In this document: positions 2,036 through 38,516 of the stretch, piece after piece | Numbering within the stretch: the stretch's first letter is position 1 | Layout: each line of letters starts with the position of its first letter | Origin: a virus | DNA: 38,516 bases | IMG/VR virus record: IMGVR_UViG_3300047470_000133 | Coordinates: 1 to 38,516 of that record | Strand: one strand, 5' to 3' | Made by a program: the position numbers and the translations under genes | Notes under the pieces: model-generated | Database searches by the model: none | Told to the model about the DNA's origin: nothing | What the model saw: the letters and a program-made list of their open reading frames with translations, nothing else

Positions 2036-2183
2036 ATGTATTTGTGTACGTGGTGCACCCAATCCCGGTATGCCTTAGGGAGTTCCTTAGAGATGTGTGA
2101 TTCGGGTACACCAAATACACAACTACACAAACAGCAGGTCAGGGGCTTGTTCGCTGATCCTTGGTGCTGGCCCAACTACACGC
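2036..2183 (-). repeat. 148-bp duplicated regulatory region, copy A
   Basis: This noncoding stretch is a diverged copy of 24514-24661. Both contain TGTATTTGTGTAC on the left and the near-inverse GTACACCAAATACA on the right (2037-2049 and 2106-2119 here). They also share ATCCCGGTAT, TTAGAGATG and TGTGATTCGGG between the arms, and CTACACA, CTTG, TCGCTG, TTGGT and CTACACGC to the right. The centre differs more than the arms. It lies upstream of the exonuclease and Gp3-like genes, so a shared control function is likely. It fills most of the space without genes between 1982 and 2268. Confidence 0.7.
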
Positions 2184-4341: not shown

Positions 4342-4392
4342 ACGCTAAGGCACCGGAGGGGCCCGCACAACCCACATACTGAAAAGAGTAGG
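4342..4392 (-). promoter_or_regulatory. Promoter with abutting dyad operator (gene at 4301)
   Basis: On the minus strand the dyad CATACT-GAAAAG-AGTAGG (plus sense, 4375-4392) is followed by a -35 box TTGTGC (4365-4370), 17 bases, and a -10 box TAGCGT (4342-4347). The layout matches the five cassettes between 28.6 and 30.8 kb, though the downstream leader is more diverged. The outer arms pair imperfectly in this copy. Confidence 0.65.
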
Positions 4393-24464: not shown

Positions 24465-24483
24465 GGATCGCAAGGGTTTCCCG
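24465..24483 (-). promoter_or_regulatory. 19-bp AAACCCTTGC motif, copy 3
   Basis: CGGGAAACCCTTGCGATCC (minus sense) lies 123 bases before the tRNA-like element and just downstream of the 148-bp region. It is identical to copy 4 and differs from copy 5 by one base. A TATATAGG follows it directly, but no ideally spaced -35/-10 pair is present. Confidence 0.5.
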
Positions 24484-24513
24484 CCGGTACAGCGCAAGGG
24501 GCGCGACGGCCCG

Positions 24514-24661
24514 ATGTATTTGTGTACCTGGTGCATGCGATCCCGGTATCTCTTAGAGATGTCTATAGAGATATGTGATTCGGGTACACCAAATACACTC
24601 CTACACAATGCCCTGGTCAGAGCCTTGCTCGCTGTTCTTTGGTCTTGAGGCAGCTACACGC
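24514..24661 (-). repeat. 148-bp duplicated regulatory region, copy B
   Basis: This is the partner of 2036-2183 and has the same length. Outer arms are TGTATTTGTGTAC (24515-24527) and GTACACCAAATACA (24584-24597). The centre has its own palindromes, ATCTCTTAGAGAT and TCTATAGA, not found in copy A. It lies upstream of the tRNA, packaging and structural genes. Confidence 0.7.
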
Positions 24662-28132: not shown

Positions 28133-28282
28133 GACGAAAGTCTCGCAACCGGAAGCGCACGTTCCATCAACCGTGGGGATTGTGTGGAGAGCTTTAACTC
28201 TCAACCGTTGGGCCTACAACGATAGGGCCCCTCATCCCCCAGGGTGACCCACACCACACCAATACGGACATTGGCCTCGTAA

Positions 28283-28309
28283 CCAAAGATAGATGTAACG
28301 CCCATGCAT
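28283..28309. repeat. ATAGATGTA repeat, copy 1
   Basis: CCAAAGATAGATGTAACG followed by CCCATGCAT recurs at 28722-28748 and, with two changes, at 28760-28786. This copy stands alone before the 139-residue gene, in the 239-base intergenic space 28133-28371. Its minus strand could read M-H-G-R-Y-I-Y-L-W, as could the others, but no credible gene follows. Confidence 0.7.
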
Positions 28310-28321
28310 CTTCCCTGAGAC

Positions 28322-28620: not shown

Positions 28621-28659
28621 CTGGTGTCTCCCCTGGCTCGCTGCGTCCTTACGAGTGGA

Positions 28660-28710
28660 ACTCTACACACGGATCCGGGGCGCGCACAACCACCTACTGA
28701 AAAGAGTATG
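28660..28710 (-). promoter_or_regulatory. Promoter with abutting dyad operator (gene at 28620)
   Basis: -35 TTGTGC (28684-28689), 18 bases, -10 TAGAGT (28660-28665). The dyad core CCTACT-GAAAAG-AGTATG (28693-28710) ends three bases before the -35 box and pairs over 8 of 9 positions. The leader TCCACTCGTAAG follows as in the neighbouring cassettes. Confidence 0.8.
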
Positions 28711-28721
28711 TGGATCCGGGA

Positions 28722-28786
28722 CCAAAGATAGATGTAACGCCCATGCATTGAGCCCGAGACCAAAGATAGATGTATCGCCCACGCAT
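28722..28786. repeat. ATAGATGTA repeat, copies 2 and 3 in tandem
   Basis: Two copies (28722-28748 and 28760-28786) lie head to tail upstream of the dyad at 28693. Copy 3 differs from copy 2 by an A/T and a G/A change. They are 11 bases apart. Diverged copies also occur at 29174-29199 and 29815-29840 in the opposite orientation, each upstream of a promoter-operator cassette. Confidence 0.75.
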
Positions 28787-28810
28787 GGAACTAGTTCACA
28801 AGCCAGGGCA

Positions 28811-29055: not shown

Positions 29056-29094
29056 TTCGTTCTCCCCTGCGTCGTTGTCGTGCTTACGAGTGGA

Positions 29095-29148
29095 ACTCTA
29101 CACACGGATCCAGGGTGCGCGCAACCACATACTGAAAAGAGTATGTGG
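29095..29148 (-). promoter_or_regulatory. Promoter with abutting dyad operator (gene at 29055)
   Basis: -35 TTGCGC (29119-29124), 18 bases, -10 TAGAGT (29095-29100). The dyad CCACATACT-GAAAAG-AGTATGTGG (29125-29148) is a perfect 9-bp inverse repeat and touches the -35 box directly. This is the cleanest cassette in the window. Confidence 0.85.
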
Positions 29149-29704: not shown

Positions 29705-29741
29705 GTCCGCTCCCCTGCTTGCCGTTGTGCTTACGAGTGGA

Positions 29742-29792
29742 ACTCTATGCGCATCCGCACGCCCCGCGCAACCACCTACTGAAAAGAGTATG
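29742..29792 (-). promoter_or_regulatory. Promoter with abutting dyad operator (gene at 29704)
   Basis: -35 TTGCGC (29766-29771), 18 bases, -10 TAGAGT (29742-29747), then TCCACTCGTAAGCAC. The dyad core CCTACT-GAAAAG-AGTATG lies at 29775-29792, within a 9-position arm with one mismatch. Confidence 0.82.
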
Positions 29793-29814
29793 TGGACGAG
29801 ACTTCGGCGCGTAT

Positions 29815-32791: not shown

Positions 32792-32810
32792 GGATCGCAA
32801 GGGTTTCCCG
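32792..32810 (-). promoter_or_regulatory. 19-bp motif, copy 4
   Basis: CGGGAAACCCTTGCGATCC (minus sense) directly abuts the stop codon of the HNH gene (32811) and lies about 40 bases before the 56-residue gene. It is identical to copy 3 and one base different from copy 5 on the other side of the HNH gene. Confidence 0.55.
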
Positions 32811-33092
32811 CTAGAAGGTTGCGGCCCACTCAGCGAGGCTCTTAGCGCCCTTGCTCAGGTTGCAGGGAGCGCAGGCAGGCAACAGGTTGTGCGCTGCGTC
32901 CGCTCCCCCACGGCTAATGGGCACCACGTGGTCTAGATGCTCGGCCGGGTCTCCGCAGTAGGCGCAGGATCCGCCGTAGGCAGCGAAGATGTCTGCGCGC
33001 CGGTAGGTCACCCGGGCCCGTCTGCGTCCCCTGCACCGCATGCAGTAGCCGCGTACTGCCTTGACTCGTCCGCAGGCACCGCATGTCTTCAT
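32811..33092 (-). CDS. HNH endonuclease, bracketed by the 19-bp motif
   Basis: The ATG at 33090-33092 gives 93 residues; an earlier start would translate the 19-bp motif and is rejected. The N-terminal half is a zinc ribbon (CGACGRVKAVRGYCMRC) and the second an HNH core with CAYCG, HLDHVVPISRGG and NLLPACAPCNLSK, holding all catalytic histidines and the asparagine. It has no strong ribosome binding site. It interrupts the line between the sigma-like gene and the thyX operon and has the motif on both sides, which suggests it could be a mobile, homing-type gene. Confidence 0.87.
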   Translation of the reverse strand: MKTCGACGRVKAVRGYCMRCRGRRRARVTYRRADIFAAYGGSCAYCGDPAEHLDHVVPISRGGADAAHNLLPACAPCNLSKGAKSLAEWAATF

Positions 33093-33101
33093 ACCGGGGC
33101 T

Positions 33102-33120
33102 GGATAGCAAGGGTTTCCCG
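33102..33120 (-). promoter_or_regulatory. 19-bp motif, copy 5
   Basis: CGGGAAACCCTTGCTATCC (minus sense) lies 9 bases before the HNH start. It is the upstream partner of copy 4. Confidence 0.55.
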
Positions 33121-33127
33121 GCACGCG

Positions 33128-33177: not shown

Positions 33178-34002
33178 CTAGATCGCGTACGCCTCGCTGT
33201 AGAGCGCCGCAAAGCGCGTCTTGCCCTTGCTCCGCACCACCTTCACGCGGTCGCGCTGGATGCCGTAGTCAGCCGACAGTTCATCATCAAAATCAATGCC
33301 GTACTCGGCAACCGGCTCGATACCGGTCAGCGCCATAAGCACCGTGCGCTGCTGCTCGCCCATCTTGTTGAGGGTGGCGTGAACCTGCGCCGTGGTCTGC
33401 TTGCGCGCGGCCTGGTTGTAGTCCGCAGGGGTCAGCATGTCTTCCGGGACTCCGATGGTGCTGGCGATGTTCGCGCCGACCGTGGTGGGCTCGCTGTCGT
33501 CGCTGCCACCGGCCGGTGCGTCCAAGTAGTCAAGGCCCTGGTACGAGAGCCGGGCGGCGTAGGCCAGATCAGCGGACAGGGTGCGGAACTTCCCGCCCAT
33601 GACGTCGGCATCCTGCACGATCTGCTCAGCGATGTAGGCATCACCCTTGGCGATGGACACGGCAGCCTCAAAACGCTGGGCGGTTGCCAGTGCCACACCC
33701 GGGCGAGTCTCGACCTTACGGGCGCTGGAAATGACCCCCGTCACCGTGGTGTCAACGAACGTGAAGAACTGGGCCACGCTGTCCCCCTTGAAGTTGGGGA
33801 GAGAGGTCCAGATCGCCGTGCGCCCTTCCTGCGCCAGATCCTCGGCAAGCGTGTGGTTGACGCGTCCGCTGGACGTTGCAGCACGCCGGGCAAGGTAGAC
33901 AACGCGCTCATCAAACTCGGTCAGGATGTGGGCGAGAGCCGAGGCCGACTCGATGTCGCTGCCCATGGCCGTACGAATCTGCTCGATGGTGACGTTGATC
34001 AT
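33178..34002 (-). CDS. Sigma-factor-like protein
   Basis: The ATG at 34000-34002 follows GGAGGGGAACCCC. Residues about 30-80 (FDERVVYLARRAA...AEDLAQEGRTAIWTSLPNFKGDSVAQFFTFVDTTVTGVI) resemble sigma-70 region 2.1-2.2, which binds the core polymerase. The C-terminal third (MGEQQRTVLMALTGIE, then DDELSADYGIQRDRVKVVRSKGKTRFAALY) has the shape of region 4, a helix-turn-helix that reads -35 DNA. A clear region 2.4 is not visible. It may direct transcription of later genes, perhaps from the 148-bp regions or 19-bp motifs. It could instead be an anti-sigma or other polymerase-binding protein. Confidence 0.6.
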   Translation of the reverse strand: MINVTIEQIRTAMGSDIESASALAHILTEFDERVVYLARRAATSSGRVNHTLAEDLAQEGRTAIWTSLPNFKGDSVAQFFTFVDTTVTGVISSARKVETRPGVALATAQRFEAAVSIAKGDAYIAEQIVQDADVMGGKFRTLSADLAYAARLSYQGLDYLDAPAGGSDDSEPTTVGANIASTIGVPEDMLTPADYNQAARKQTTAQVHATLNKMGEQQRTVLMALTGIEPVAEYGIDFDDELSADYGIQRDRVKVVRSKGKTRFAALYSEAYAI

Positions 34003-34041
34003 TTTGGGGTTCCCCTCCGGTTTGCTGCGGTGATGTGCTGG

Positions 34042-34070
34042 AACGTATGCGGGGCCACTGGCATATGCAA
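34042..34070 (-). promoter_or_regulatory. Promoter for the sigma-like gene
   Basis: -35 TTGCAT (34065-34070), 17 bases, -10 TACGTT (34042-34047), followed by CCAGCACATCACC. It is like the cassette promoters, but no dyad touches it; the nearest (34271-34288) is 200 bases upstream. Confidence 0.55.
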
Positions 34071-34270
34071 CTGGCGTTTCGCTGGGAGAGACCCAGGCCA
34101 CGGGGACAAGGTTGTGACGATTTCGAAGGCGTAACGGGGTCTCATCCCTAGGATTGATAGGTAAGACCATTCGGTAACGGCGGGGTAACCAGGCATTTGC
34201 AAGGCGCAACGCTGGTCACCCCGTCAGGTACTAATCGGCATAGGACTTGCCACGTGTGACCCACCCGACA

Positions 34271-34288
34271 CCTACTCTTTTCAGTAGG
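34271..34288 (-). repeat. Dispersed dyad, copy 13
   Basis: CCTACT-CTTTTC-AGTAGG pairs over 8 bases and lies 12 bases after the DNA polymerase stop (34300). It is upstream of the sigma-like gene's promoter but separated from it. Between 34071 and 34270 I see no gene. Confidence 0.65.
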
Positions 34289-34299
34289 TGAACGCAGAG

Positions 34300-36232: not shown

Positions 36233-38516
36233 TCAGTCCTGGGCGAAGATGCCCGGACCCGTTGCCTTCACTTCGGTACCAGCGACTCGAACGCCCACCA
36301 GGGCCATGCCCTTAGCGACCCGCACGCGCTGAATGCCGCGCTCTTCCATCGCGGAATAGAACAGCTTTCGCGACCACACTTCTTTGGTCTGTAGCCCCTC
36401 GGCCTCGCACCATTCGCGGTAAGCGTTGTATGCGTCAGCGCCGTTGATGCGCGCCGTGTCGTCCGCCTCAAGCACGCCCGGGAAGAAACCGGCCAGCGTG
36501 TCCGACGTGGCTTTGTATTCGTCCGTGGCAGCGCTGATGTACTCCGGATCCTGCAAGCCGTTGGCGAACCAGGCCACCGCACCGCGAACACACCAGGCCG
36601 CAATGCCCTCCGCCTCGCCGAGTAGCTTTCGGTCAAGGTTGTGATCTCGCTCGCCGGGGGCAAAGAACCGCTTGAACGGCACCATCTTGACGCGGCGCCA
36701 AAGGCCGTCATCCTGGCCGCGAAACTTGGGCTTGTGGTTGGTCGCCAGCATGAGAAGGAACGTCGGGCGGAACGTGAAGAACTCTTGACGCAAGAATCGG
36801 GCCGCAATCTCATCCTTGCCGGTGACCCGTTTCAGTACGGCCTCAGACATCGGGCGCCCCGACTCCCCCTCAGACGCCATGACGAGACGAGAACCGCGCA
36901 GCGCTGCAAGGTCGTTGGGGATGCCGCCGCTGGCCTTATCCTCGAACGTCGCAAAGGGGGTCGTGGTGCTGATCGTCCGGAACACCGCCGTCAGCGTGTC
37001 TGTCAGGACTGATTTGCCGTTCGCGCCCTTGCCCCACAGCACGCAGAAACACTGTTCGTCCGTGTAGCCGGTGATTCCGTAACCAAGCATGCGTTGCATG
37101 TACGGGACCATCTCGGGCATGTCCGGGAAGATCTCGACCATGAACGATTCCCAGCGAGGCGCGGGGGCATCGGCCCGGAAGTTGATGTCCAGCGCGTACG
37201 TCATCATGTCCCGCTTGTCATGCGGGCGGAGCTTGCCGGTTCGGAGTTCCACCGTGCCGTTACGGAAGCTCAGCAGGTCCGGTGCGGCATCAAACTTGGC
37301 AGCTTCCACATAGACGCTCGGGACGGAGCGCAGTTCAGTCATCAGCGCGTCAATGCGCGTCGTCATGAGGAACGGCTTTGCCTGGTCGAGCTTCCCGGCG
37401 AGGGTCAGCGCGGCGCCCATGCGGTGGATCTCTTGGCGTACCAGGGTGCCCGACCCGTCGCGCTGCCAGACACGGCCGTCCCACACGTAGTAGCCGAGCC
37501 CGGGGGCAAACTTGATACGGCCGTCGGTCCACGCCACCAGGGCATGCGCGTTCATCGCGTCAGACTCGCCGTAGCGCTCGATAAGGCCAGCGATCACGCG
37601 GGCAGCCTCGGTGCCCTGGTCACGGCTCACCACATCGGCGCCGGTTGCCTCGCTGAGTTCCGCCGATACGGTGGCTGCCTCGGCCTCGGCATGCATCTTG
37701 ACGGGCATAGCTGCCTTGACAGCGCGGTGAAGAGCAGCGGCAAACTCGGACGGGTCACGCTCGCGCCAGTCCGTAAGGTCATCCCCGGCGTTCGGAATGG
37801 CCAGCGTGTATACGTCGATTCCGTGCTCTGCCAGACCCTCAGCGAGCCGACGGCTGAACGTCTGCCCCGCCGTGTCGTTGTCGCCAGCCACGATTACCTG
37901 AGTGCCCCGCAGGCCGTCGGCAAGCTCCGCGATCAACTCCGGGGAGGACGCCAGCGAGGCACCCCGGACAGCGACAGCGTCATATCCGACCGCAACCGCT
38001 GTGAGGCCGTCTCCGGGCCCCTCAGTTATGAGCGTGACTCCGTATCCGGCCTCTCCCCGAAACACGCCGTAGGGGGTCCAGCGCTGCCCCTGGGGGTTGC
38101 TCAGCGACAGCCACCGTCCGGGGCACTGCCCGGAAAGGTCGCGACCCTGGGCACCACGGGTGACGCCGTCGAATCCGTTCAGCGGCACCACCATGCGCGG
38201 GAACCGGCCGAATGACGACGAGATAAACGAGGGTCCATCGGCGGACGGTGCGGCCCATCGCAGGCCGATTCGCTCGGCGGCATCCTTGGTGATCCCAAAC
38301 CGTTCCTCGGCGTACGACCCGTCCCCCACCGGAAGCGAGTCCAGCCACATGCGCAGGGTTGCTATCGCCCCGATGCTGACAAGCTGCGGACGTTCCTTGG
38401 GCACGGTTACGGCGTCGCCTTCCACGTTGAACAGATCAGGCCAGCGGAGCCCCGCAGCCTTAACGATGTCGTCGTTCTTGCACATGGCCCGGCAGGCAAG
38501 CCGAACCTTGTGGTCA
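36233..38516 (-). CDS. TOPRIM primase / SF3 (D5-like) helicase, 5' end cut by the window
   Basis: The frame is open to the edge, and the residues before the first ATG (HKVRLACRAMCKNDDIVKAAGLRWPDLFN) are the end of a primase zinc ribbon, so the true start lies outside. The TOPRIM domain has ITEGPGDGLTA and VAGDNDTAGQ, which carry the catalytic Glu and Asp-x-Asp. The C-terminal half has WGKGANGKSVL (Walker A), LVMASEGESG (Walker B) and LLMLATNHKP (sensor), the SF3/D5 helicase set. It primes and unwinds DNA at the replication fork. It ends 83 bases before the polymerase. Confidence 0.95.
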   Translation of the reverse strand, partial: DHKVRLACRAMCKNDDIVKAAGLRWPDLFNVEGDAVTVPKERPQLVSIGAIATLRMWLDSLPVGDGSYAEERFGITKDAAERIGLRWAAPSADGPSFISSSFGRFPRMVVPLNGFDGVTRGAQGRDLSGQCPGRWLSLSNPQGQRWTPYGVFRGEAGYGVTLITEGPGDGLTAVAVGYDAVAVRGASLASSPELIAELADGLRGTQVIVAGDNDTAGQTFSRRLAEGLAEHGIDVYTLAIPNAGDDLTDWRERDPSEFAAALHRAVKAAMPVKMHAEAEAATVSAELSEATGADVVSRDQGTEAARVIAGLIERYGESDAMNAHALVAWTDGRIKFAPGLGYYVWDGRVWQRDGSGTLVRQEIHRMGAALTLAGKLDQAKPFLMTTRIDALMTELRSVPSVYVEAAKFDAAPDLLSFRNGTVELRTGKLRPHDKRDMMTYALDINFRADAPAPRWESFMVEIFPDMPEMVPYMQRMLGYGITGYTDEQCFCVLWGKGANGKSVLTDTLTAVFRTISTTTPFATFEDKASGGIPNDLAALRGSRLVMASEGESGRPMSEAVLKRVTGKDEIAARFLRQEFFTFRPTFLLMLATNHKPKFRGQDDGLWRRVKMVPFKRFFAPGERDHNLDRKLLGEAEGIAAWCVRGAVAWFANGLQDPEYISAATDEYKATSDTLAGFFPGVLEADDTARINGADAYNAYREWCEAEGLQTKEVWSRKLFYSAMEERGIQRVRVAKGMALVGVRVAGTEVKATGPGIFAQD

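Follow-up and report, generated by a model that had tools for sequence, protein, structure and literature searches.

Genomic context of the repeat pair

The window analyzed here, a stretch of DNA of 38,516 bases, is a whole virus record with all its major genes encoded on the minus strand. It represents a phiC31-like phage and, read circularly, has the gene order of phiC31, the classic Streptomyces phage; its exonuclease (1142-1981) shows 62% identity to gp1 of phiC31 and 64% identity to the proteins of Streptomyces phages such as Shawty. The window also encodes a serine integrase, ThyX, DNA polymerase A, a sigma-like protein (33178-34002), portal, terminase and a D5-type primase-helicase (36233-38485, minus strand), the homolog of phiC31 gp9a. 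The record probably ends inside the primase-helicase gene (38485-38516), the start of which would then be cut off, and the window protein is shorter by about 50 N-terminal residues found in its relatives.

Two similar 148-bp sequences, both on the minus strand, are present in this genome: copy A (2036-2183), upstream of the exonuclease gene, and copy B (24514-24661), between the integrase gene and the tRNA/late genes. As reported in an earlier note on this DNA, the two are of the same length and closely similar, being identical at 118 of the 148 positions without gaps; the best other 148-mer in the window reached 59 matches on the plus strand and 63 on the reverse strand (mean 37, sd 5.2). A search of the whole record for further copies, with copy A as the query, returned A and B only, the latter with an E value of 4e-35. 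The facing arms described in the note were recovered (2036-2049 and 2106-2119 in copy A), as were the additional internal palindromes of copy B (ATCTCTATAGAcAT and ATCTCTAAGAGAT), and, read in gene direction (minus strand), a 19-bp motif indeed comes after each copy, adjoining A at 2016-2035 and lying 29 bp past B at 24465-24484. The placement of the copies ahead of gene blocks also holds, with A preceding the exonuclease gene and B preceding three tRNAs, an HNH gene and the terminase gene.

Copy B is located downstream of the serine integrase, about 0.4 kb past the end of the integrase gene, a proximity that would suit attP or another recombination site of the integrase. However, attP of phiBT1 is annotated just upstream of int, that of phiJoe is described as lying 18 bp upstream of int and spanning 50 bp or less (PMC5311408), and copy A is about 22 kb away from the integrase-side copy B. 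An attP would be one site of about 50 bp immediately ahead of int, whereas the two copies measure 148 bp each and neither is upstream of int; this candidate was rejected as hardly credible.

The window contains other repeated or noncoding elements. Fourteen 18-bp palindromes of the type CCTACTGAAATGAGTAGG (at 4375, 6466, 14902, 17179, 19757, 23822, 28693, 29128, 29775, 30299, 30753, 32376, 34271 and 36178) are probably repressor operators; phiC31 and phiBT1 have 16 palindromes each, of the type CCTACTCACGTGAGTAGG, and the repressor sites of phiC31 resemble these sequences. Blocks of 40 nt (28282-28321, 28721-28798) and 70 nt (28644-28713, 29079-29148, 29726-29795) are repeated near small early genes. 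In the window and six phages, a noncoding gap of about 300-530 bp separates the polymerase gene from the gene for the sigma-like protein (34003-34299 in the window, 29484-29957 in L016, and the equivalent regions); pieces such as TTACGCCTTCGA and GCATATGCC are common to several of them, and the gap of the window produced no match in Rfam.

Inverted octamer arrays at two conserved loci

A search of a phage collection with copy A or B detected no DNA similarity to known phages, and the comparison was therefore based on position and architecture instead. In IMG/VR, close relatives with such copies were found, one contig carrying both. We fetched 15 phiC31-like phages and compared the region before the exonuclease gene with the region after the integrase gene in each. 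All 15 phages carry a repeat pair comparable to that of the window at matching loci, one member ahead of the exonuclease gene and the other between the integrase and late genes; the pair is split in RemusLoopin, and in Sebastisaurus it is weak. The copies are separated by about 18-22 kb in these relatives.

The arm sequences vary among the phages but the architecture is constant: two to three octamers face two to three inverted octamers around a core of lower GC content. The arms are of the GTGAYGnn type in phiC31, phiBT1, Shawty, TG1, Lilbooboo, Samora and AbbeyMikolon, of the GTGCA type in Heather, RemusLoopin and Sebastisaurus, and of the GTGTA type in Rowa and the window, where the consensus is GTGTAnnn (GTGAYGnn in phiC31 itself). 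Shaeky, Attoomi, phiSASD1 and Dubu possess the pair with other arms that lack a GTGxyG octamer. By inspection, two elements are shared across differing arms: a short CTGACC[AT]G stretch that precedes the arms, and a core resembling ATAAGA..TCTATAGG.

In the window, the conserved unit is a 93-bp inverted octamer array (2036-2128 in A, 24514-24606 in B) accompanied by one outlying octamer in each copy. The octamer scan placed ATGTATTT, GTGTACGT and GGTGCACC on the plus strand at 2036-2059 of copy A, and the inverted octamers GTGTAGTT, GTGTATTT and GGTGTACC on the minus strand at 2105-2128, with GTGTAGTT recurring as the outlying octamer at 2174-2181 (minus strand). Copy B contains ATGTATTT, GTGTACCT and GGTGCATG at 24514-24537 (plus strand), GTGTAGGA, GTGTATTT and GGTGTACC at 24583-24606 (minus strand), and the outlying GTGTAGCT at 24652-24659 (minus strand). 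The intervening cores, candidate melting regions, have a GC content of 49% in A (2060-2104) and 42% in B (24538-24582), compared with 62% for the record. Across the family, the mean GC content is 44% for the DNA between the arms and 38% for its central 30 bp, compared with 62-64% for the genomes; the reduction in core A of the window is moderate, weaker than the family mean.

Palindrome scoring was dropped because the best palindrome fell off-site in several regions (phiSASD1, AbbeyMikolon), and the octamer scan took its place, controlled by 200 shuffles that reached a maximum score of 19. At a score of at least 20, 9 of the 11 phages whose whole genomes were scanned (from the 15 fetched) have exactly two arrays, as does the window; the exceptions are TG1, with one extra, non-matching CC hit, and AbbeyMikolon, in which both sites score 19. 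Five shuffles of the phiC31 genome yielded no arrays. Of the 65 loci scored, 60 have arms spaced 77-79 bp apart, start to start. Both arrays of a genome share the variable dinucleotide of the octamers (xy in GTGxyG) in all 11 phages and in the window, so that, by sequence, each genome has two equivalent sites.

Long inverted arms at the points where two transcription blocks begin could also form a structure in the transcribed RNA, acting in antitermination or as a regulatory RNA. Among 44 distinct arm pairs, however, the octamer cores are 89% complementary and the linker dinucleotides only 43%, and this poor complementarity of the linkers favors protein-binding sites over an RNA stem. Moreover, the Rfam search of the window matched the three tRNAs and nothing else. 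We regard an RNA structure as very improbable.

A separate promoter-like motif

The earlier note had proposed that a common activator or sigma factor acts on both copies, and sites of this kind, which would switch on the early exonuclease/RDF genes and the late genes, would be consistent with the position of both copies where a transcription block begins and with the promoter-like motif after each. The motif is separate from the array at both sites (2016-2035 and 24465-24484, minus strand) and is followed, beside B, by TATATAGGTAGGGG in gene direction; the B-side motif copies of the phiC31 group carry TATAGGTAG. It also occurs elsewhere without an array, at 32792-32811 and 33102-33121, for a total of four hits in the window. 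A motif of 18-20 bp, different for each phage, precedes many early genes. When both strands were scanned with relaxed patterns, Attoomi gave 3 hits (one inside a structural gene), AbbeyMikolon 6, and phiBT1, Shawty, Lilbooboo, Heather, RemusLoopin, Dubu and phiSASD1 12-19 each, a range that phiC31 exceeded under the loosest pattern; some of all these hits are due to chance. Given that the arrays occupy just two places and that most of the scanned phages have 12-19 motif hits, promoters in general can do without an array. The early promoters of phiC31 are phage-specific, and the adjacent 19-bp motif fits a separate phage-specific promoter; by inspection, it appears to suit the sigma idea better than the arrays do. 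Across the window and L016-L030, the 18-20 bp motif varies by phage group, seemingly in parallel with the sigma-like protein gp12.

The octamers covary with the wing of the primase-helicase

We collected 126 primase loci (80 viral, 46 genomic), of which 115 included the region upstream of the exonuclease gene; this region contains an array at a score of at least 20 in 65 loci and none at that score in the other 50. Fifty representatives, including the known phages, were selected (primase identity under 90%, or differing class), and column and window statistics were computed on the 48 with AC, TA or CA as the dinucleotide, leaving out those with GC and GT. Across 2,245 alignment columns from five proteins (primase, exonuclease, polymerase, sigma-like protein and RDF), the strongest links to the dinucleotide are those of residues 727 and 722 of the primase, which in the window are M727 (at about 36305-36307) and R722 (at about 36320-36322).

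In the 50 representatives, the combination K722/I727 accompanies AC in 29 cases and GC in one, R/M accompanies TA in 11 of 11, and R/N accompanies CA in two of two. The remaining combinations are R/T with TA (one), K/V with AC (two) or GT (one), and the exceptions, namely R/I with AC (two), in which AC occurs with R722, and K/M with AC (one), in which AC occurs with M727. The best 9 of 2,219 ten-residue windows all fall in the primase wing, with an AUC of 0.90, compared with 0.754 for the best window elsewhere. When 23 query families, not all of them independent, were tested, the primase came first (0.902 vs 0.741). Among sixteen loci below the threshold (score 18-19), 8 of 11 with a KT..GI/V wing have AC, both loci with an R..GM wing have TA, and the other three have different wings for which there is no prediction.

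The sigma-like protein gp12 seemed a promising octamer binder at first, from the comparison of Heather with phiC31, but was rejected on the covariation statistics, since it does not track the octamer dinucleotide (AUC of 0.52 for the whole protein and 0.70 for its best ten-residue window). Sigma or activator sites are accordingly an unlikely reading of the arrays, the octamer variation of which follows the primase wing rather than this protein. Thus, the idea of one trans-acting protein shared by both copies stands, but not its identification as an activator or sigma factor; the factor is very probably the primase-helicase.

A tree of the primase with its end removed implies six changes of the dinucleotide. 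The independent contrasts on supported branches number five, and every one of them agrees with residue 722 (sign test, p 0.0625, the minimum for five contrasts). One sister pair, L036 and L088, reads as a natural exchange: the exonucleases are 93% and the RDFs 92% identical, as is most of the primase at 90-98% (64% in the first 60 columns), whereas the primase ends are only 56-70% identical and the octamers are unrelated. Because the sigma-like proteins of this pair also differ (52%), it cannot on its own separate the primase from the sigma-like protein. AbbeyMikolon does separate them. This phage has the GTGAY octamers and the KKT..GI wing of phiC31, although its primase is nearer to that of Heather (68%) than to that of phiC31 (63%) and its sigma-like protein is about 28% identical to that of phiC31, which argues against the sigma-like protein as the common factor. 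Collectively, these patterns show a strong coevolution of the variable dinucleotide with the C-terminal winged helix of gp9a, the putative binder of the octamers.

The fold of the primase end is compatible with such a role. The window protein matches the P4-family primase profile TIGR01613 with 247.4 bits (cut-off 108.7), compared with 265.0 for phiC31 gp9a and 108.7 for P4 alpha, and its end is predicted to form a winged helix with wing strands at residues 719-723 and 726-734 (pLDDT mostly 81-92 in the domain; mean of the whole model 63.2). A second-look structural alignment of model residues 101-178 with the P4 origin-binding domain 1ka8 gave a Z score of 8.3 and an rmsd of 2.4 over 74 aligned residues; Foldseek returned no match at E <= 0.001, and 1ka8 was not among the matches of the sequence-profile search. 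The top fold matches are RFX domains (1dp7 and RFX5 8zjr; Z 9.2 and 9.5), which have the fold alone in common with the primase end, RFX being a eukaryotic transcription factor. RFX reads DNA mainly through its wing, and this mode of recognition would fit the covarying wing residues of the primase.

Two putative replication origins

Taken together with the TIGR01613 match and the fold, the coevolution makes gp9a the proposed initiator, and we consider it likely that A and B represent a pair of replication sites of the P4/PICI origin type, with octamers bound by its C-terminal winged helix. The winged helix would bind tandem GTGxyGnn-like octamers in two inverted sets about 78 bp apart, the wing being the part that contacts them; two helicase rings may then load face to face at the array, the lower-GC core would melt, and copying would presumably start with the phage polymerase. 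The earlier note had set its regulatory reading against an origin or an att-like site; the evidence now favors the origin, and the att-like site has fallen away. GC and AT skew have no consistent turning point at A. The AT skew peaks near B in several phages and has its minimum about 1.5-3 kb before A in most phages of the phiC31 group; with the minimum away from A, the skew follows the gene blocks. A search of the open-licence literature found no report of a phiC31 replication origin (subscription literature was mostly outside the search).

The closest likeness is to ori and crr of P4 with the alpha protein: both systems have a P4-family primase-helicase with a C-terminal winged helix of the origin-binding type (1ka8) and octamers at separate places, in inverted sets. 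The annotated type 1 sites of P4 are the octamers GGTGAACA, and crr has two forward and two inverted octamers per 120-bp repeat, plus one more. In P4, however, the crr repeats are in tandem with ori about 5 kb off, whereas the window has two 148-bp copies about 22 kb apart, and the P4 octamer differs from GTGTAnnn of the window and from GTGAY, GTGTA or GTGCA of the phiC31-like family. The PICI/SaPI origin is single and directly 3' of rep; here, in autonomous phages, there are two copies kilobases from the primase gene, A preceding the exonuclease gene and B following the integrase gene, neither of them adjoining the primase gene. SPP1 offers a parallel for the duplication: it has two origins, oriL and oriR, composed of repeats and an AT-rich element and recognized by one phage binding protein (PMC6316719), and the phiC31-like genomes likewise have two sites, putatively for one binding protein. 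SPP1 differs in using gp38, a separate loader and a DnaB-type helicase, whereas phiC31-like phages have a fused primase-helicase.

These precedents also raise the prospect that a single copy is the true origin, the other being an accessory element required in cis, as crr is in P4, or a late origin or fork barrier, as for oriR of SPP1, served by the same primase-helicase. The use of the same octamers at the separate ori and crr of P4 and of one binding protein at the two SPP1 origins would agree with this division of labor, as would the location of B, which adjoins the late genes and, in phiC31, lies about 1 kb short of the record end; against it, the A and B arrays are equally complete. We rate it somewhat below an even chance; being a variant of the main origin reading, it overlaps with the latter in probability.

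Returning to two equivalent origins, we see about equal grounds for accepting and for doubting a more specific joint proposal: that they are distant P4/PICI-type origins with a specificity set by a few wing residues of the primase (K..T..GI for GTGAC, R....GM for GTGTA and R....GN for GTGCA), that origin and initiator are exchanged together, and that the second origin, located at the late promoter, couples replication, late transcription and packaging. If correct, these findings would supply the whole phage group with an origin, an initiator and a code by which protein-DNA specificity can be read, and an origin type so far described as particular to PICI satellites would extend, in duplicate, to autonomous temperate phages.
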